From: an uncultured Sphaerochaeta sp.
GTDB taxonomy: Bacteria; Spirochaetota; Spirochaetia; Sphaerochaetales; Sphaerochaetaceae
Assembly (NCBI RefSeq): GCF_963667405.1
Contig: NZ_OY763408.1
Location: forward strand, 1,449,757-1,513,756
DNA length: 64,000 nucleotides
Reading direction: 5' to 3'
In this document: positions 45,825 through 53,950 of the stretch, one piece after another
Position numbering within the stretch: the stretch's first letter is position 1
Layout: the number at the start of each line of letters is the position of its first letter
The notes under the pieces: generated by a model
The model's database searches: none
The model's input: only the letters and a program-made list of their open reading frames with translations
Told to the model about the DNA's origin: nothing
Position numbers and translations under genes: made by a program

Positions 45825-46067
45825 TTATTGCTGTTTGGTATTCTGCTTGATGAAATCCAAGGATTTCTGCAACTCTTTCAGAAATTCTCCAAGGTCTTCC
45901 TGATAGACAATGATGGATTGTCTGATGAATCGTTCTGATTCAGGAGTACCTTTGCTTTCGACCATGTTCAGAAACATGTCGCCATAGATGTTCTCTTTTA
46001 CATTAAAGAAATAGGTCCTGTCATTCTTGACAAGCCTTGATGAATACACTTCTCCACGCTGTCCCAC
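45825..46067 (-). CDS. PUR-domain nucleic-acid-binding protein (DUF3276, BpuR-like)
   Basis: An 80-residue single PUR-alpha domain with the family opening RGEVYSSRLVKNDRTYFFNV, then KENIYGDMFLNMVESK and the helical end. The Borrelia member BpuR binds RNA and DNA and tunes gene expression, so a post-transcriptional regulator is likely. The start is GTG 46067 with GAGGA seven bases upstream. It is divergent from tRNA-Gly. Confidence 0.85.
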   Translation of the reverse strand: MGQRGEVYSSRLVKNDRTYFFNVKENIYGDMFLNMVESKGTPESERFIRQSIIVYQEDLGEFLKELQKSLDFIKQNTKQQ

Positions 46068-46193: not shown

Positions 46194-46264
46194 GCGCCTT
46201 TCGTATAATGGTATTACCTCAGCCTTCCAAGCTGAAGAAGCGGGTTCGACTCCCGTAGGGCGCT
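46194..46264 (+). tRNA. tRNA-Gly (anticodon TCC)
   Basis: A 71-base cloverleaf: acceptor GCGCCTT with AGGGCGC, anticodon stem TCAGC/GCTGA around CTTCCAA (anticodon TCC), T-loop GGGTTCGACTCCC, discriminator T. CCA is not encoded and must be added after transcription. Confidence 0.96.
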
Positions 46265-46297
46265 CTAGAAAGAACTTCTTCCATTGCAAGAACTTAT

Positions 46298-46417: not shown

Positions 46418-47491
46418 TCAGGAACCCAAGCAAACACCCATGTGCCTGGCGCACTCCACAAGATAGTGGTTTTCCGGAATATATTTGACAGGACCTGCCA
46501 CTTTCTTCAAGGGTACCGGAACAATGGTGTTTTTCTGGTATGCCATCATATGGCCCCAGTTCTCAGCCATGATCTCCAACGCACACCGGCTTCCCAGCGC
46601 TGTGGACAGCAACCTGTCATAGGGAGTGGGCGTGCCACCCCGTTGCAAGTAACCCAGGATGGTGACCCTGGTCTCCCGTCCTGTGAGCTTCTCCAGATTG
46701 GCAGCCAACTCGCCGGTACGTGTCTTCAGCATTGCCTCAACCTTTTCCTCGCCATCCTTCTCTTCCTGCCTGATCGCAGCCATCCGCTTTGAGATGGCAC
46801 CTTCGGCCACCACCACAATGCTGAACTTCTTTCCTTCACGGCTTCTGCGCAAGATTGCATCAGCCACCACCTGCTCATCATAGGGGATTTCCGGAAGCAG
46901 GATGACATCGGCACCTCCGGCCAGACCACTGCCAAGTGCCAGCCATCCCACCTTATGCCCCATGGTCTCCAGAATGATGATCCGGTGATGACTGTGGGCG
47001 GTGCTGTGCAGACGGTCTACAGCCTCGGTTGCAATCATCATGGCGGTGTCATAACCAAAAGAGACATCAGTGTGCATCACATCGTTGTCGATGGTCTTGG
47101 GCAAGGTCATCACATTCAGCCCGGCACTCGCCAGTCGGTGGGAGTTTTTCTGGGTTCCCCCTCCCCCAAGACAGACAAGACCGCTGAGATGGTTGTCATG
47201 ATAGTTCTGCACGATGACATCGGTCATATCCATGATCTTCCCACCCACCGGCATCTTGTGCGGCTTGTCACGGCTGGAACCCAGGATGGTACCGCCTCGG
47301 GTGATGATGCCGCTGAGATAGCTGTCATTGAGCTCGACGAAGCGATTCTCCATCAGCCCGCGATACCCATCCAGAAAGCCGATAAGGGTGTAGCCGCCCT
47401 CATGAAGCAGTGTTTTCCCCACTGCACGAATTGCTGAGTTCAAACCCGGTGTATCACCACCGGAGGTAAGGATGCCAATCAGTTTGCTCAT
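46418..47491 (-). CDS. 6-phosphofructokinase with altered phosphoryl-donor motif
   Basis: Phosphorylates fructose 6-phosphate. The 357-residue protein has the PFK landmarks [15 protein letters not shown], the catalytic PKTIDNDV (131-138; Asp as base) and [15 protein letters not shown]. The donor-site loop, GGDGS in ATP enzymes and GGDDT in pyrophosphate enzymes, reads GGGGT (109-113), so the Asp that orients the magnesium-nucleotide is Gly. The Lys of PKTIDND is otherwise typical of pyrophosphate-type and group III enzymes. Donor choice (ATP, pyrophosphate, polyphosphate) cannot be settled by eye. It is the last gene of the polyphosphate operon, overlapping the ParA-like gene by four bases. 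Confidence 0.88.
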
Positions 47492-48279
47492 AGGTTCACC
47501 TCGTTCGTCTCGTGTTCGCCAGAAGGTCTTTCCCCCTCTGCATCCAACAGCACAAGCACCTCATCAAACAACTCCCTGCAGGCTTTTGCACCCCGACCGT
47601 TCGGGTGGAAGAGAAACACCGGCTCCTGAAGCTGTGCAACCTTTTCCAAATCCGCCGTACTTGGTATTTCCGTCCGAAACACCCCGTCCATGGCATGCAG
47701 GCTTTCAGCAACCTGCACCTGGATCCGTTTTCTCCGGTCAATGAGCGACACGCAGGGGTGTATCTTCTCTTGCGAAGCCCCCTTTGCAATCATCAGTGCG
47801 AGCACCTGCTCAAGCGCACGCACCGAAAGAGGCGTGGGAATCACCGGAATTATCACCAGTGTTGATACATTGAGCAGATTCTCGGCAAGCACATCCAGTG
47901 CAGTCGAACCGTCCAGCACCACCAGGTCATAGGAATCCTCAAGACTGGAGAAGCTTCTCTCAAGCCGGTGTTTCGGATGCTTTTTCCCTGCCATCAAGGC
48001 AGACAAGGCGAAATAATCCGAAGATGAAGGCAATACATGCAACAGCGGCACATCGGTAGGCTGGATGGATGCAAGCAGTTGCTTCCCCCCTTCCAGCAGG
48101 ACACTCGCATCATGATCCTTGCGTGCTTTCACATGCAGGCAGTGGGAGCTCGAGCCAAGAGAATCAAGGTCCACAAGCAACGTGCGATACCCCTTCTGGG
48201 CACCCAGAAAAGCCAATTGCACACTCAACGTACTCTTGCCTACCCCACCCTTGGGGCTGTACAGGGAAACAACCTTCAT
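47488..48279 (-). CDS. ParA/MinD-like ATPase in polyphosphate operon
   Basis: The 263-residue protein has the deviant Walker A motif [12 protein letters not shown] (8-19) and the A' motif [11 protein letters not shown]. Position-defining ATPases of this family bind DNA or membrane in the ATP-bound dimer state and move cargo such as plasmids, carboxysomes or storage granules. The switch II region reads VVLDGSTAL, where Asp-x-Pro-Pro is usual. There is no ParB gene, no parS-like site and no Min partner here. Instead it is coupled by four-base overlaps to a CHAD protein upstream and a phosphofructokinase downstream. A role in placing polyphosphate granules is an inference. Confidence 0.85.
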
Positions 48280-49262
48280 AAGCGCTCCTCCCAGAAGGGG
48301 GTGGTAAGCGCACGATACTCTGCAAGCCGCTCATCGATATCCCGCTGCAAGGCAACCAGCGAATGTTTCTCATCCAAGCTGAGCTTCTTTTGCGATTGCA
48401 GTTGGTCTTGCACCATGATCATATCGTGCCAGGAGCCCAAGCAATCCTGCAAGGCAACAAGCTGGGGATCCTGCTCGATCTGGGCAAGTTCCCTCACATA
48501 CCGCAGAGCCTTGACACTCTTGCGTACCCGATGCATCGCCTTTATGTCGCGTGCAGAACGTACTGCATGCACAGCCTTTACCAGGGACCCGTACCGTTTG
48601 GCCGCCATTCTTGCAGGATCGAGGGAGGCACAATGGTAGAGCGAGACATCAACAGCATGTTGCATGTCGGCAAGCACCGTGCTGTCCAGCAAAGCGTACA
48701 GAGTATGCTTCCTCATATCCTGGCGCGCCCCAGAGGAGTGAACAACCACCCCGTAGGAGGCCAGAAGCTGCTGTTGCACCTCCGTATCCCGTATCTTGCC
48801 GGTGAGGCGGGCAATCTTTTTCACCCGCTTCGAAAGCTTTTCCTGTTGGGAGTCGGAACAGGAGGAAAGCAGATGAGGCAGTATGGTGCGCAGCTTGCGC
48901 AAGGCAACGCGGAAATCATGCATGGCCTCATAGTGGCCAAGCTGTGGCATGAGTGATTCCATCTTCCGTATCTGGTTTGTTGCGTACGTGGAGACAGGGT
49001 TGCTTGCAAGCGCTTGGAAGGATGGGAGAGCAAGCAAATCCAAACAGAGTTGCAACTGACCTTCCAACGGATATAGCTCCATGCGCTTCTCCACGGGATG
49101 GAACAGCACATCGGCAATCGCCCTATTCTCCTGAAGCAGGGTGCCTCGATACAAGGGTTCTGTCTCACCCCACATAAAGCGGAACGGTTCGAAGGCAGTC
49201 TCCCATGCCAGGCCATCCACACCAGTGCGCAGAAGAAGGGTAATACCTGCATCACTTCTCAT
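48276..49262 (-). CDS. CHAD-domain protein (polyphosphate-binding type)
   Basis: CHAD domains are helical bundles that bind polyphosphate through conserved His, Arg and Lys; some localise to polyphosphate granules. The 328-residue protein has the two hallmark repeats, MHDFRVALRKLR (about 113) and MHRVRKSVKALRY (about 242), plus further basic helices. The first 85 residues lack the pattern and no CYTH (triphosphatase) domain is evident, so it is probably a stand-alone binding protein. It is coupled to ppk upstream and the ParA-like gene downstream by four-base overlaps. Confidence 0.88.
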   Translation of the reverse strand: MRSDAGITLLLRTGVDGLAWETAFEPFRFMWGETEPLYRGTLLQENRAIADVLFHPVEKRMELYPLEGQLQLCLDLLALPSFQALASNPVSTYATNQIRKMESLMPQLGHYEAMHDFRVALRKLRTILPHLLSSCSDSQQEKLSKRVKKIARLTGKIRDTEVQQQLLASYGVVVHSSGARQDMRKHTLYALLDSTVLADMQHAVDVSLYHCASLDPARMAAKRYGSLVKAVHAVRSARDIKAMHRVRKSVKALRYVRELAQIEQDPQLVALQDCLGSWHDMIMVQDQLQSQKKLSLDEKHSLVALQRDIDERLAEYRALTTPFWEERL

Positions 49263-51319
49263 GATTCAACCTCCAGCAAACTCTGATAATAGCGATACAG
49301 ATCCTGTTGGGCCCGTTTCTCACCTGAAATCCCTGTCTGCAGCCGCTGGTTGTAGGAACCTTGCTCCAGACTGAAGGAAGAGTAGGTGTCCTCCCAGTGC
49401 ATCGTGAGAAATACCTCAAGCTCCTCCTGGATTTCCTTGCTGTAGACAGGGACCATCACCTCGATGCGGGTATCGAGATTCCGTTCCATCCAGTCGGCAG
49501 AACCGAGGAAGTACAACGGCTTGCCGCCATTGTGGAACTTCACGACACGGGTATGCTCAAGGTACCGGTCAATGAGGGCCTTTCCCCTGAGATTCTTCTG
49601 GTCCTTGTGCAGGGCAAGCGAACAGATTCCCCTGATCATCAGGGTGATGGGAACCCCACTGGCCTCTGCCTTCACCAGATGCTTGATCATCTGCTGGTCA
49701 ACCAGATTGTTGAGCTTGAGCACAATCCCAGACTCCTTGCCGGCAAGCGCTTGCTCCATCTCCGCCTTGATCAGGGAGATGAACCGCTTGCGGGTGTGGA
49801 ACGGGCTGACGATCAGGTGCTTGAACTTCACATCGGCGAACCCACGCTCCAGAAGCAGGAAGAGCTGATCGATTTCACCTGTCAGCTTGGGGTTGGCGGT
49901 AAGCAGGATGTGGTCGCTGTACTGACTGGCCGTATTCTCGTTGAAGTTGCCTGTCCCCACCAGTGCAACACGTTTCAGTTTCTTACCGACGGTGCGGGTG
50001 ATGAGGGCGAGCTTGCTGTGCACCTTCATCCCCTCCACCCCACTGATGAGGTTGATATGCCGTTCACGGGTGAGGATTTCCGTCCACTGCATGTTGATCT
50101 CCTCATCAAAGCGTGCCTGAAGCTCAAGATAGAGTGTCACTTCCTTGCCGTTTCGTGCTGCATTGCGCAGGGCGTTGATCACGCTTGAATTCTCCGGCAC
50201 CCGGTAGAGGGTCATTTTGATGGAGGTGACCTGCCTGTCCAAGGCGGCCTCGCGCAGCAGGTCTATCACCGTGTCGTACCGGTGGTAGGGCAAGGTGACC
50301 AGATGGTCCCGCTTCTCTATCTGGTCGAGCAAACTGAACTGGTCGGACAGTGTGTGGTGCTTCAAAGGCCGCTGTTCCTCAAAATAGAGAGCGGGAATCT
50401 CAATCTTCGGAAAGCGCAGCAAGTCACGCGCGTTGTGATACCTTCCCCCTGCTATGATGATCCTGCACTCCTTCAGCTGAGCTTTCTCCATGAGGTAATT
50501 GAGCATGTGCTTGGGCATGTCACGGTCATAGACAAAGCGGACAGGGTCCCCCTGGCTGCGTTGCTTGATTGAGGTGGAGAGCTTCTCATAGAGGCTTCGG
50601 GTTATCTCATCGGTCAGGTCATATTCGCCGTCACGGGTTATCTTGATGGTGTAGGCATCATACCGATCATACGGAAGCGCCTTGAAGATCTCATTGAGCT
50701 TGAGACGGATGACATCCTCAAGATTGATGATGTGGTGCCAGCCCCCGCGGGAAGGCAATTCGACATACCGATCCATGGTGTTGGGCACTTCAACCAAGGC
50801 ATACCGGAAATCGGAAGGCTGGGTGCTGTGGTACATGTGTACGGCAAGGTAGAGCGTCACATGCTTGAGGTAGGGAAATGCAAGATTGGGATCGAGCAGG
50901 ATGGGGAAGAGATTGCGCCTGAGTTTCTGTGCCGCAAAGCTGTCAAGAAACTCACGCTGGCGATCGGAGAGCGTCTGCTCGTCAACCATGCAGATGCGAT
51001 GCTTGCGCAGCTCCTCAAACAGATGTTCTGTAACTGCGTCGGTCCGGGCATTCAGACGTTTCACCTCATGCAAGATCTCCTTGAGCAGTGTCTTCAGGTT
51101 CCCGCTTCCTTTCAGCGGATGATGTTCCGGATCGATGAGGGCACGGTGTATCGACCCCACACGAACAGCATAGAATTCGTCCAGATTCGATGAGAAGATT
51201 CCCACAAACTTCAGCCTCTCCATCAGCGGAATCGACTCATTCTCTGAGGCCATGAGCACCCGTTCGTTGAAACTCAGCCATCGCAATTCACGATTCACAT
51301 ATGCTTTGCTTGCTCCCAT
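49259..51319 (-). CDS. ppk: Polyphosphate kinase 1
   Basis: Makes long-chain polyphosphate from ATP. The 686-residue protein has the N domain (from YVNRELRWLSFNERVLMAS), a head domain, and two phospholipase-D-like C domains. The phosphorylated His is in GMKVHSKLALITR (about 432) and the second catalytic His is in YLEHTRVV (about 587), both close to the Escherichia coli positions. It is the first gene of a four-gene, fully overlapping operon. No exopolyphosphatase (ppx) gene is adjacent. Confidence 0.96.
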   Translation of the reverse strand: MGASKAYVNRELRWLSFNERVLMASENESIPLMERLKFVGIFSSNLDEFYAVRVGSIHRALIDPEHHPLKGSGNLKTLLKEILHEVKRLNARTDAVTEHLFEELRKHRICMVDEQTLSDRQREFLDSFAAQKLRRNLFPILLDPNLAFPYLKHVTLYLAVHMYHSTQPSDFRYALVEVPNTMDRYVELPSRGGWHHIINLEDVIRLKLNEIFKALPYDRYDAYTIKITRDGEYDLTDEITRSLYEKLSTSIKQRSQGDPVRFVYDRDMPKHMLNYLMEKAQLKECRIIIAGGRYHNARDLLRFPKIEIPALYFEEQRPLKHHTLSDQFSLLDQIEKRDHLVTLPYHRYDTVIDLLREAALDRQVTSIKMTLYRVPENSSVINALRNAARNGKEVTLYLELQARFDEEINMQWTEILTRERHINLISGVEGMKVHSKLALITRTVGKKLKRVALVGTGNFNENTASQYSDHILLTANPKLTGEIDQLFLLLERGFADVKFKHLIVSPFHTRKRFISLIKAEMEQALAGKESGIVLKLNNLVDQQMIKHLVKAEASGVPITLMIRGICSLALHKDQKNLRGKALIDRYLEHTRVVKFHNGGKPLYFLGSADWMERNLDTRIEVMVPVYSKEIQEELEVFLTMHWEDTYSSFSLEQGSYNQRLQTGISGEKRAQQDLYRYYQSLLEVES

Positions 51320-51349: not shown

Positions 51350-51379
51350 AGTATAGGTGGCCGTTCCAAGCGATGTCCA
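51350..51379 (-). promoter_or_regulatory. Probable ppk operon promoter
   Basis: Minus strand TGGACA, 18 bases, TATACT, about 30 bases before the ppk ATG. No pho-box-like direct repeats were recognised. Confidence 0.5.
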
Positions 51380-51467: not shown

Positions 51468-51496
51468 TTGACAGGGTGTCGCTTCACCCATAAATC
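51468..51496 (+). promoter_or_regulatory. Promoter of the M29 gene pair
   Basis: Consensus TTGACA, 17 bases, TAAATC, with a start expected about 25 bases before the ATG at 51528. Confidence 0.55.
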
Positions 51497-51527
51497 TGCT
51501 ATAGTATGCTCGTTCAACGGAGGCCTC

Positions 51528-52727
51528 ATGGAAAACCTATTGAGACGGTATGCACGTCTTGTCATTTCTGCGCAACTCAAGCTGATGGAGGGAGACACGC
51601 TCTCCATCAATACCGAGTCGAGCACCATACAGTTCGCCCGCCTGCTGGCCAAGGAAGCAACGCTTACCACCCGGCAGACCGTCATGATCGTGGAGATCAA
51701 CCATGGCAAGGTCGTTCAGGCCTATCCCATTGACCCGGCAGAGAAAGAAATCTTCCGTCCCCCGGTACGCATGGTGGTTATGTGCCACCTCATCGACCTG
51801 GACAGCAAGCCCTATCTCAGTGACTTCGATCTGAATCAGGCGAAGGATGAAGTTACCGTTCTCTCCCAGTTCGGCATGCTCAGTGAACCCGTGTTCCTGG
51901 ACCGCCGCATAGCGGTACCCTGGGCCAACATCCCCTACCCCGGATACAACTGGGCAGCACAGCTTCTGGGAAAGCATGCAAGCGATGAGGAGATGTGGAA
52001 CCTGTTCAGTGCCCTGTACCGCCTGGAGAACGACTGGGCTTCCTCATTCTGGGAAGAACAGGGAATGATGCTTGAGTATCGCAAGCAGCGGCTCAACGCA
52101 CTGGGGGAAAGCAAGCTGGTCCTGGAGGGGGATGGTTGGTCACTGAGTGCCGACCAAGCGAAACAGACCCTCTGGGCGGGAGGGAGAGCCAAGCTGAGCA
52201 ATAATCGAAGCTTCGTTCCCATCTTGCCGATGCAAAGCATTCATGCAAGCGTTGATTCTGCATCTGCAGAGGGAAGCTTCATCGCCTCCAGGCCCTTCCA
52301 GGTGCTCGGGCGCGAGGTGGTCGGCGCACGCTTCACCATCAAGGATGGCAAGGTTGTCGCCTTCCATGCTGATCAGGGCGAGGATGCACTCGCTGCCTTC
52401 TTTGCCGTCGATGAAGGGGCAAAAACAGTTTCGGAAATCTCCATCGCCGACAATGATACGATGGAGAGCAGGTACCTGGGCAAATCCGTACATCCCCACT
52501 TTGCCAAGGAACTTACCACATCGGTGGTCTTGGGCGGATTCTCCATTGATGTGCTGACCACTCAGATGGATGATGAGGATGTGGATGCCAGCAAGCTGTG
52601 CCGCTCCCTGGTACGCCTGGAAATCCCGGTGGGAGACAGCCATCTCTCGCTGAAGCTGACCAACGCCAATGGCGATGAGCAGCTGGTCATGTACGAGGGA
52701 ATCTACACAGAAACAGGAGGCGTATGA
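51528..52727 (+). CDS. M29 aminopeptidase paralogue, metal site degenerate
   Basis: The 399-residue protein (ATG 51528 with CGGAGG upstream) aligns along its length with M29 metallo-aminopeptidases and with its downstream neighbour. The metal-ligand positions differ. The neighbour's NLPTEEIF appears here as ILPMQSIH. The neighbour's LDENASCHLALG becomes roughly AKELTTSVVLGG with the His lost, and the SLMHIDFMIG region is replaced near PVGDSHLSL. Only the Glu of SEISIAD looks kept. It is therefore probably inactive alone, perhaps a partner subunit of the active enzyme encoded immediately downstream (four-base overlap). Confidence 0.75.
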   Translation: MENLLRRYARLVISAQLKLMEGDTLSINTESSTIQFARLLAKEATLTTRQTVMIVEINHGKVVQAYPIDPAEKEIFRPPVRMVVMCHLIDLDSKPYLSDFDLNQAKDEVTVLSQFGMLSEPVFLDRRIAVPWANIPYPGYNWAAQLLGKHASDEEMWNLFSALYRLENDWASSFWEEQGMMLEYRKQRLNALGESKLVLEGDGWSLSADQAKQTLWAGGRAKLSNNRSFVPILPMQSIHASVDSASAEGSFIASRPFQVLGREVVGARFTIKDGKVVAFHADQGEDALAAFFAVDEGAKTVSEISIADNDTMESRYLGKSVHPHFAKELTTSVVLGGFSIDVLTTQMDDEDVDASKLCRSLVRLEIPVGDSHLSLKLTNANGDEQLVMYEGIYTETGGV

Positions 52728-53950
52728 TGGATGAGCTCTTGATGAACCGCTATGCGGATCTGGTGATCAGAAAGGGGATCAACCTGCAGAAAGGAAAAGC
52801 CGTCCTGATCCTCACCGGACCGGGAACCTACGCGTTTGCCCGACAGCTGGCGAAATCGGCCTATCGCCACGGCGCAAGCTATGTGCAGGTCATGCTCGAT
52901 GACCTGGATGTGTTGGCAGAACGGCTCCAGCACCAGGAGGCCGATGAGCTCTCCTTCAACCCTGCCTTCCTCAAAGCACTCGACTATGAGATGTGCAGCG
53001 AAGGCTGGTCCTACATCAGGATCGACAGCACCGAGGACAGGCTCGACCACGGTCCATTTGACAATGCGAAGTATCAGGTGCTGGGAACCGCAAAGAGAAA
53101 GTTCAGCGAGACCAGAACCAAGAAACTCATGCGCCATGAGCTTGCCTGGTGTGTCTGCTGTGCACCCGGCCCGCGCTGGGCGAAACAGGTGCTGGGCGAA
53201 CAAGCCACCGAGGATGATCTCATGGATGTACTCAAGCCCATCCTCCTGCTCGACCAGGAAGATCCGCTTGCAGCATGGGAAGGGAAAAAGCAGATGCTGC
53301 TCAAGCGTCAGGCCTACCTGAACAACCTGGGCATCGACAGCATCCACTTCAAGAGCAGCAAGACCGATCTGGTATTGGGACTGAGAAGCGAAGCCAGGTT
53401 CATCGGAGGGGGAGAGACACTTCCCGACGGCAGACCGTTCTTCCCCAATCTTCCTACTGAGGAGATTTTCACCACTCCCGACAGACTGCGTGCAGAAGGA
53501 TACGTCACCACCACCAAACCTGTCTCCGTACTCGACAACACCACCGAGGAGGTGAGGCTCACCTTCAAGGACGGAAAGGTGGTCGATCATACGGCTCGTG
53601 TGGGCAAGGAAGCGATGGATGCATTCTTTTCCATCGATGAGGGAACCAGAAGACTTGGGGAAGTGGCACTGGTGGACCAGAGCAGTCCCATTGCAGCCAG
53701 CAACCTGGTCTTCAACTCCATCCTGCTTGATGAGAATGCTTCCTGCCACCTCGCCTTGGGCGAAGGCTACAGCACCGCTCTCACCAACGGCGTTTCGCTC
53801 ACCTCACAGGAAGCAATGCACCAAGCTGGGTGCAATACCAGCCTGATGCATATCGATTTCATGATCGGCTCCGATGACATGGACATATACGTCCATACCA
53901 GGGACGGAAACGAGATCCAGATCATGAAAGAGGGGTTGTTTACGTTCTAG
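52724..53950 (+). CDS. M29 family aminopeptidase
   Basis: Metal-dependent aminopeptidase of the AmpS/AmpT/PepS family, a cytosolic peptide trimmer. The 408-residue protein keeps the ligand motifs: NLPTEEIFTTPD (Glu), GEVALVD (Glu), LLDENASCHLALG (Glu, His) and SLMHIDFMIGSDDMDI (His, Asp). The ATG overlaps the stop of the degenerate paralogue, and a second ATG follows immediately. Its stop overlaps the convergent coaX stop by four bases. Confidence 0.92.
   Translation: MMDELLMNRYADLVIRKGINLQKGKAVLILTGPGTYAFARQLAKSAYRHGASYVQVMLDDLDVLAERLQHQEADELSFNPAFLKALDYEMCSEGWSYIRIDSTEDRLDHGPFDNAKYQVLGTAKRKFSETRTKKLMRHELAWCVCCAPGPRWAKQVLGEQATEDDLMDVLKPILLLDQEDPLAAWEGKKQMLLKRQAYLNNLGIDSIHFKSSKTDLVLGLRSEARFIGGGETLPDGRPFFPNLPTEEIFTTPDRLRAEGYVTTTKPVSVLDNTTEEVRLTFKDGKVVDHTARVGKEAMDAFFSIDEGTRRLGEVALVDQSSPIAASNLVFNSILLDENASCHLALGEGYSTALTNGVSLTSQEAMHQAGCNTSLMHIDFMIGSDDMDIYVHTRDGNEIQIMKEGLFTF

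Follow-up and report, generated by a model that had tools for sequence, protein, structure and literature searches.

Architecture of the operon

The DNA analyzed here (the window) is a stretch of 64,000 nucleotides from the genome of an uncultured Sphaerochaeta sp., which consists of one contig of 3.23 Mb. On the minus strand of the window, from base 51319 to base 46418, lie four consecutive open reading frames (ORFs) that encode polyphosphate kinase 1 (PPK1), a CHAD-domain protein, a ParA-type ATPase, and a variant 6-phosphofructokinase (PFK). All four begin with ATG and each junction is a 4-base ATGA overlap, and the ORF listing and the sequence bear out the proposal of an earlier note on this DNA that the genes form one operon. 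The PPK1 was identified with the NCBIfam model TIGR03705 (657.5 bits against a cutoff of 465.85) and keeps both catalytic histidines, at the positions of Escherichia coli H435 and H592.

CHAD and ParA form a conserved pair across phyla

An alignment of the ATPase (A1) was scanned against 84,980 species genomes, in which at least 405 candidate stretches encode a relative, and the best 80 loci, four of them at contig edges, were kept by similarity alone. A CHAD ORF was adjacent, on the same strand and within 700 bases, in 50 of these best 80 loci, one of which is from Sphaerochaeta, and the two genes share a 4-base overlap in 19 of the 50. The paired loci include Chlorobiota, Desulfobacterota, KSB1, Latescibacterota, Gemmatimonadota, Bacteroidota, Deferribacteres, and two Methylococcaceae (L103 and L117, which nest in the ParA tree among Methylococcales without an adjacent CHAD gene), as well as a metagenome-assembled genome (MAG) named Methanophagales archaeon; all names are those of the records, and MAG labels may be wrong. 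A PFK is present in 4 of the 50, including the Sphaerochaeta MAG at locus L039, which holds the nearest named relative of the window ParA. At L096, from a MAG labeled Actinomycetota, PPK1, CHAD, ParA, a small ORF, and PFK lie on a single strand.

A test that started from CHAD covered the class of genome G384, where 80 of 144 genomes contain the domain. Among the 30 best-scoring loci, a ParA of the same subfamily was adjacent and scored over its full length in 23, was partial in 3, and was missing from 4. Paralogs served as a control in 12 genomes chosen because they hold such loci (10 CHAD adjacent and 2 from Methylovulum). When only the window ParA was used as the query, the top match in each genome scored 126 to 148 bits, and none of the 42 other ParA-like matches exceeded 82 bits. 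None of the 18 of these others that were examined had a CHAD gene within about 1.5 kb, whereas nine were adjacent to ParB. Because the ParA rows were the source of the subfamily profile used in the alignment, paralog, and CHAD-first scoring, their own high scores with it arise by construction. The conserved pairing of ParA with CHAD is thus found from both directions, and CHAD and this subfamily of ParA almost certainly act together. The idea that the pair is a curiosity of spirochaetes was also considered and is ruled out by the genome-wide scan and the CHAD-first test.

Six plasmid matches were opened, and in two, both from Paracoccus, the order is CHAD-ParA-CYTH-NUDIX, with one copy beside pstB-phoU-phoB; on the plasmid of Paracoccus marcusii (L148, 607 to 7249), phoU, phoB, CHAD, ParA, CYTH, NUDIX, and CYTH genes share one stretch. 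In some Methylococcales (L062, 6001 to 8296; L076; L090), the subfamily ParA is followed by an ORF of about 482 amino acids that is not CHAD and in L062 is an MgtE Mg2+ transporter. Mg2+ is a usual counter-ion of polyphosphate. Between PPK1 and the CHAD gene, a Chlorobiaceae locus (L041, 3510 to 4430) has a 306-amino-acid ORF with no Pfam family above cutoff, and L048 has one of 261 amino acids in the same place.

The CHAD protein retains the polyphosphate-binding core

The window CHAD protein matches PF05235 with 63.6 bits (cutoff, 25.6) over residues 96 to 288, a domain whose pI is 9.6; the N-terminal region of about 95 amino acids has no known domain. The AlphaFold2 model has a mean pLDDT of 82.0, and its best Foldseek matches are the CHAD structures 6rn5 and 6qva. 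CHAD domains are known from the literature to bind polyphosphate and to sit on granules. In PMC6537752, CHAD is reported to bind polyphosphate, and mutants of the contact residues to bind it more weakly or not at all. All six core positions of the Chlorobaculum tepidum protein (CtCHAD) that bind polyphosphate, H253, R256, R260, R296, R418, and Y419, have retained equivalents in the window, in agreement with the earlier note, which had placed the protein in a polyphosphate-binding family.

The ParA-adjacent CHAD protein of Chlorobaculum thiosulfatiphilum matches the C. tepidum CHAD structures 3e0s and 6qv7/6qva, of which 6qva contains polyphosphate, with an E value of about 1e-178, and the published contact numbering (H253 and so on) fits it exactly. 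The CtCHAD that was crystallized with polyphosphate is therefore probably, as judged from the sequences, the ortholog of a CHAD protein that neighbors ParA in another Chlorobaculum. Taken together with the literature, polyphosphate is very probably the cargo of the CHAD-ParA pair. Five long CHAD proteins from other loci gave no CYTH match in Pfam (E ≤ 0.01); their YDTFDWRL stretch nevertheless looks CYTH-like by eye.

The ATPase belongs to a distinct ParA subfamily

The ATPase is an AAA_31 protein in Pfam (97.3 bits) and scores below the curated cutoff of every one of the 22 NCBIfam models listed. The Walker A, A', and B motifs are intact, and K10 (the signature lysine), K15, D39, and D123 are invariant over 48 aligned ParA rows, in which the basic residues R183 and K184 are kept in 87% and 97%, respectively. 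The AlphaFold2 model (mean pLDDT, 91.6) matches Soj/ParA with a Z score of about 32, followed by McdA (28.5), MinD (26.5), FleN (26), BcsQ (25), and FlhG (24). Residues 250 to 262 are unstructured, with low pLDDT, and the tails of the relatives, judged by eye only, show no amphipathic membrane helix.

The family search of the window proteins found no ParB beside the operon ParA, whose neighbors are CHAD and PFK, as the earlier note had stated; the genome has its own ParB elsewhere, beside a separate Soj, and it also carries further ParA-like genes. A maximum-likelihood tree was calculated from 54 rows, including six controls, with Mrp and MinD left out for their very long branches. In it, the ParAs linked to CHAD form a group that also contains the Methylococcales in nested positions; this group is split from the six controls with support of 94/87 and from Soj by a long branch. 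The window ParA is only weakly placed as sister to L096 (50/82). With a separate Soj-ParB pair in the genome and distinct clades in the tree, the window ATPase is not the chromosomal ParA and not a member of its clade but represents a distinct subfamily. Placement among chromosomal ParA or flagellar FlhG proteins, set beforehand as one of the results that would refute the earlier proposal, was not observed. Another ParA-like gene of the same genome (L143, 1450 to 2211; 253 amino acids) has no ParB within 1.5 kb and lies between ORFs that look glycosidase-like by eye.

An ordinary chromosome or plasmid partition protein that sits in a polyphosphate operon by chance would share two features with the ATPase, namely, a fold closest to Soj and a best NCBIfam match, below its cutoff, to the generic ParA partition model. 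It would not account for a pairing that recurs across phyla while none of the 18 paralogs examined adjoins CHAD, nor for the separation from Soj in the tree, and the genome already encodes Soj with ParB. Chance placement of a partition gene is ruled out by the paralog control together with the Soj-ParB pair, and this explanation retains hardly any probability.

Conservation within the family and among spirochaetes

In a sample of 100 genomes of the family, CHAD is present in nine (the host of the window, seven others of the same genus, and G021, which belongs to a different one), and a ParA match at E ≤ 1e-25 is present in seven, including the host. The order PPK1-CHAD-(ParA)-PFK is found in all nine CHAD-bearing genomes, a recurrence beyond what chance would give. 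The PPK1/CHAD and CHAD/ParA overlaps recur as well; ParA and PFK are separated by 5 bases in the other six genomes whose ParA is intact. Conservation of gene order in relatives, chosen beforehand as a test, thus held in the seven other genomes of the genus and in G021. The expectation that ParA and CHAD would adjoin ppk1 across spirochaetes fared well within the genus, but elsewhere the arrangement is rare, with ParA at 1 of 21 other CHAD loci; the wide conservation of the CHAD-ParA pair lies in phyla other than spirochaetes.

Within the genus, identity to the window proteins is 76 to 77% for PPK1 and 85 to 89% for PFK, compared with 44 to 46% for ParA and 31 to 35% for CHAD, indicating that the CHAD-ParA pair evolves fast. 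Among six related genomes, CHAD and ParA have dN/dS values of approximately 0.04 to 0.17 and are under purifying selection; silent sites are saturated when these genomes are compared with the window.

The phosphofructokinase is linked to PPK1 and has an altered donor site

The window PFK matches PF00365 with 315.4 bits. At E ≤ 1e-50 for PPK1 and E ≤ 1e-60 for this PFK, each gene occurs in 44 of the 100 family genomes, and 43 genomes have both (Fisher P = 5e-26, kinship ignored), and the listed coordinates place them within about 2 kb of each other in 39 of the 43. What lies between them in the fetched family loci is CHAD-ParA, in several cases Ppx/GppA, or nothing. Since the two genes are also linked where CHAD and ParA are missing, the PFK belongs with polyphosphate metabolism and not with the ATPase. 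Loci with PFK, a Ppx/GppA exopolyphosphatase, and PPK1, without CHAD or ParA, were seen in two other genera of the family (L120, 3208 to 4134; L122, 4125 to 5030; L133, 4300 to 5205).

The donor site has G103, G104, K107, N108, and K124 where the E. coli enzyme has D103, G104, M107, G108, and G124, and F73 and R77 are replaced by D and K. According to PMC10339645, G108 admits the ribose of ATP, which Asn or Thr blocks, and D104 blocks the alpha-phosphate site. The window enzyme thus shares Gly104 with ATP-dependent PFKs but not their Gly108, and shares a bulky residue at 108 with pyrophosphate-dependent PFKs but not their Asp104. G104 together with N108 would leave space for a third phosphate and none for a nucleoside. 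From these residues, it is an even call whether the enzyme uses an inorganic phosphate chain; the combination of G104 with N108 leads us to infer polyphosphate or tripolyphosphate as that donor. The suggestion of the earlier note that the sugar kinase may spend polyphosphate is supported insofar as the donor-site residues favor a donor other than ATP; the enzyme's place in an ATPase-centered module is not, as its linkage is to PPK1.

The four genes could also be cotranscribed merely for phosphate and energy metabolism, with CHAD and ParA in granule upkeep and the PFK a normal ATP enzyme. The occurrence of PFK-PPK1 linkage without CHAD and ParA fits this view, as does the retention of G104, the residue of ATP-dependent PFKs. 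The view is nevertheless improbable, as N108 replaces the ribose-admitting glycine under the rule of PMC10339645, D103 is lost, and the genome has another PFK with D103, G104, and G108; a further one has D103, D104, and N108.

Loss of D103 was considered as a mark of polyphosphate-using PFKs on its own and was rejected, because Treponema-type PFKs (GGNGTNTT and similar) also lack it. These have PPK1 within 3 kb in 0 of 16 fetched loci, a count of linkage and not of the genome-wide presence of PPK1, and PFKs with D or E at position 103 have it in 0 of 8. Of the PFKs that have K107 but not D103, 19 of 30 are linked to PPK1 over the same distance, the window not counted; none of the other 24 is. 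The first of these counts is biased by 16 family loci fetched after the PPK1 and PFK coordinates had been seen (14 of 16 linked); outside the family, 5 of 14 are linked. The comparison covers 54 loci of the phylum, with five contig edges among the unlinked and L211 dropped because it lacks the motif; of the 71 genomes that gave a PFK match, 39 are covered by wider stretches. Linkage to PPK1, mapped as a label on the PFK tree, requires 5 changes, compared with a mean of 18 after shuffling, and a quick tree makes the window PFK the sister of that of L096 (SH-aLRT, 99).

Surroundings of the operon

Upstream of the operon and divergent from it, two consecutive M29 aminopeptidase genes with a 4-base overlap occupy bases 51495 to 53950 on the plus strand; two ORFs similar in size to this pair, compared by size only, also lie 5' of ppk1 in the relatives L132, L137, and L138. 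Downstream are a tRNA-Gly (46194 to 46265) and, past it, a small DUF3276/PurA-like gene (45825 to 46067). Promoter and terminator scans of the region returned approximately the number of sites expected by chance, with 6 promoter-like sites against a shuffled mean of 3.7 (standard deviation, 1.8), which lends no support to the promoter sites as a class, including the one in Table 1.

Table 1. Features of the operon, with positions in the window
Feature	Position	Strand	Evidence
ppk1, polyphosphate kinase 1, 686 aa	49259..51319	-	ORF, Pfam/NCBIfam, catalytic His positions
CHAD-domain protein, 328 aa, proposed cargo adaptor	48276..49262	-	Pfam, core residues, AlphaFold2 model, Foldseek
ParA-type ATPase, 263 aa, deviant Walker A KGGVGKS, CHAD-linked subfamily	47488..48279	-	Pfam, alignment, tree, model
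6-Phosphofructokinase variant, 357 aa, G103 G104 T105 Q106 K107 N108 K124 (E. coli numbering)	46418..47491	-	Pfam, residue alignment
ATGA overlap, ppk1/CHAD gene	49259..49262	-	Sequence
ATGA overlap, CHAD gene/parA	48276..48279	-	Sequence
ATGA overlap, parA/pfk (5-base gap instead in six relatives)	47488..47491	-	Sequence, relatives
Promoter-like site 5' of ppk1, TGGACA-18-TATACT, 10/12	51350..51379	-	Consensus match only

A model for the placement of polyphosphate granules

In the model favored here, PPK1 would make polyphosphate that condenses into granules, and the CHAD protein would coat the granule and act as the adaptor for ParA. The ATP form of the ATPase would be bound to the nucleoid, with the CHAD protein as its partner, and the usual ParA cycle of partner-stimulated hydrolysis, release, and rebinding would space the granules along the nucleoid and share them between daughter cells. 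The role of CHAD toward polyphosphate would correspond to that of McdB toward carboxysomes or of ParB toward DNA. The PFK would use polyphosphate, tripolyphosphate, or pyrophosphate in place of ATP, so that the store could feed the committing step of glycolysis. As a whole, spacing or partition of granules by ParA with a CHAD adaptor, combined with a PFK that uses phosphate chains, is the best explanation of the locus and is held with moderate confidence. Taken separately, that the joint action of CHAD and ParA results in the positioning or partition of granules is somewhat probable, and as the means by which cells place their polyphosphate granules the pair is a good candidate. A bolder reading, that CHAD-ParA is a widespread unnamed granule-positioning system of many phyla and an archaeal MAG, joined here in an operon by PPK1 and a new class of polyphosphate-using PFK (donor site G103 or A103, G104, K107, and N108 or T108), is advanced only tentatively and is rather doubtful.

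Several observations weigh against the model. Nucleoid binding, the contact between CHAD and ParA, granule positioning, and the PFK donor are all inferred, as is the very presence of granules in this organism. The window CHAD keeps only one of six basic positions of the outer patch (K386) and, at 328 amino acids, is short, without the N-terminal part of about 200 amino acids found in the proteins of other phyla; the protein of the sister Sphaerochaeta (L039) has changes at four of the six core positions for binding and keeps R256 and R296. In G059, of the same genus, ParA is broken up between two reading frames (L130, 3234 to 3795), and in G021, of a neighboring genus, it is internally shortened (L131, 4497 to 4793), while CHAD, PPK1, and PFK remain open in both, and G036, from the genus of G021, has PFK-PPK1 without CHAD and ParA; the pair is therefore dispensable in places. 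Of the 21 further CHAD loci in the Spirochaetota sample, 20 have no ParA within 1.5 kb, the sole exception being G173. Farther afield, CHAD is missing from the locus in 26 of the 76 ParA relatives that could be evaluated (25 Methylococcales and one Lentisphaeria MAG), and PPK1 lies inside just 20 of the 50 CHAD-ParA loci, which are of limited length. Of the six plasmid matches opened, four are not CHAD adjacent, one of them being ParB adjacent, and plasmid ParAs of Pontibacter and Marinobacter without adjacent CHAD score 304 and 263 bits with the subfamily profile.

Part of this evidence suits a different role for the pair, in which CHAD-ParA works on polyphosphate without positioning it and ParA is a nucleotide-dependent switch or scaffold for PPK1, for granule nucleation, or for granule size, like BcsQ or FlhG/FleN. 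The conserved CHAD-ParA pairing fits such a switch equally well, BcsQ and FleN are also close folds, and damage to ParA in G059 and G021 with the other three genes open is what would be expected of an accessory regulator. The nearer folds, however, are Soj/ParA and McdA, ahead of FleN, BcsQ, and FlhG, and the basic residues R183 and K184 are conserved. A switch or scaffold is thus considered unlikely, though it deserves to be kept in view, and granule positioning is preferred.

Relation to known systems

The proposed system resembles McdA/McdB, in which a ParA/MinD-family ATPase works with a cargo-bound partner (PMC13052382): the ATPase is likewise encoded with a cargo-binding partner, CHAD, and its model aligns with McdA over 240 residues. 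It differs in that the proposed cargo is a granule of a phosphate polymer, the partner is a CHAD protein, and identity to McdA is 13% over the aligned region. With ParABS (Soj-Spo0J) the window ParA shares the ATPase fold and motifs, and these are its nearest structures, but it has no adjacent ParB and belongs to a separate clade, and the Soj-ParB pair of the genome lies elsewhere. Phosins and other CHAD proteins (PMC6537752) share the domain, the core binding residues, and the polyphosphate ligand, whereas no ParA partner was found in the available part of that article.

Granule placement is described as an emerging, largely open question in a 2025 review (PMC13052382), in the available part of which AlgP of Pseudomonas is the sole polyphosphate-positioning protein tabulated, those of Caulobacter are given as not identified, ATP dependence for the polyphosphate granule is given as unknown, and the energy cost is left open. 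In Pseudomonas aeruginosa, AlgP is known to contribute to the even spacing of such granules, but it is a histone H1-like DNA-binding protein and not an ATPase (PMC9239181). The earlier note knew of no described system with this set of genes, which does not hold entirely. In Acidithiobacillus, ppk, parA, and CHAD genes lie side by side in a folD-ppk-parA-CHAD cluster called highly conserved (PMC10892726); the available part of that article gives ParA a role in plasmid partition only, proposes no joint function, and shows no PFK in the cluster. A literature search, which left most subscription journals and all of bioRxiv outside, found, in the texts as far as they were available, no paper in which ParA is assigned a function at polyphosphate granules and no experiment that combines it with CHAD; nor did it find the phrase "polyphosphate-dependent phosphofructokinase" or two variants of it. 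The Pfp of Thermotoga maritima, likened to the window PFK by its description only, has its lowest Km for polyphosphate (0.0038 mM, against 0.067 mM for pyrophosphate), and its Vmax is also higher with polyphosphate than with pyrophosphate (PMC10339645, Table 4).

The CHAD-ParA pair consists of named genes that can be deleted in cultured strains, for example, Chlorobaculum thiosulfatiphilum DSM 249 (L115), and an assay of the PFK would show directly whether polyphosphate can drive glycolysis without ATP. If the model is correct, a polymer granule would join the cargoes of ParA-type ATPases, and the ATPase neighbor of the kind of polyphosphate-binding CHAD protein that has been crystallized would be explained. 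On the bolder reading given above, the making, placing, and spending of a polyphosphate store would form one genetic unit.

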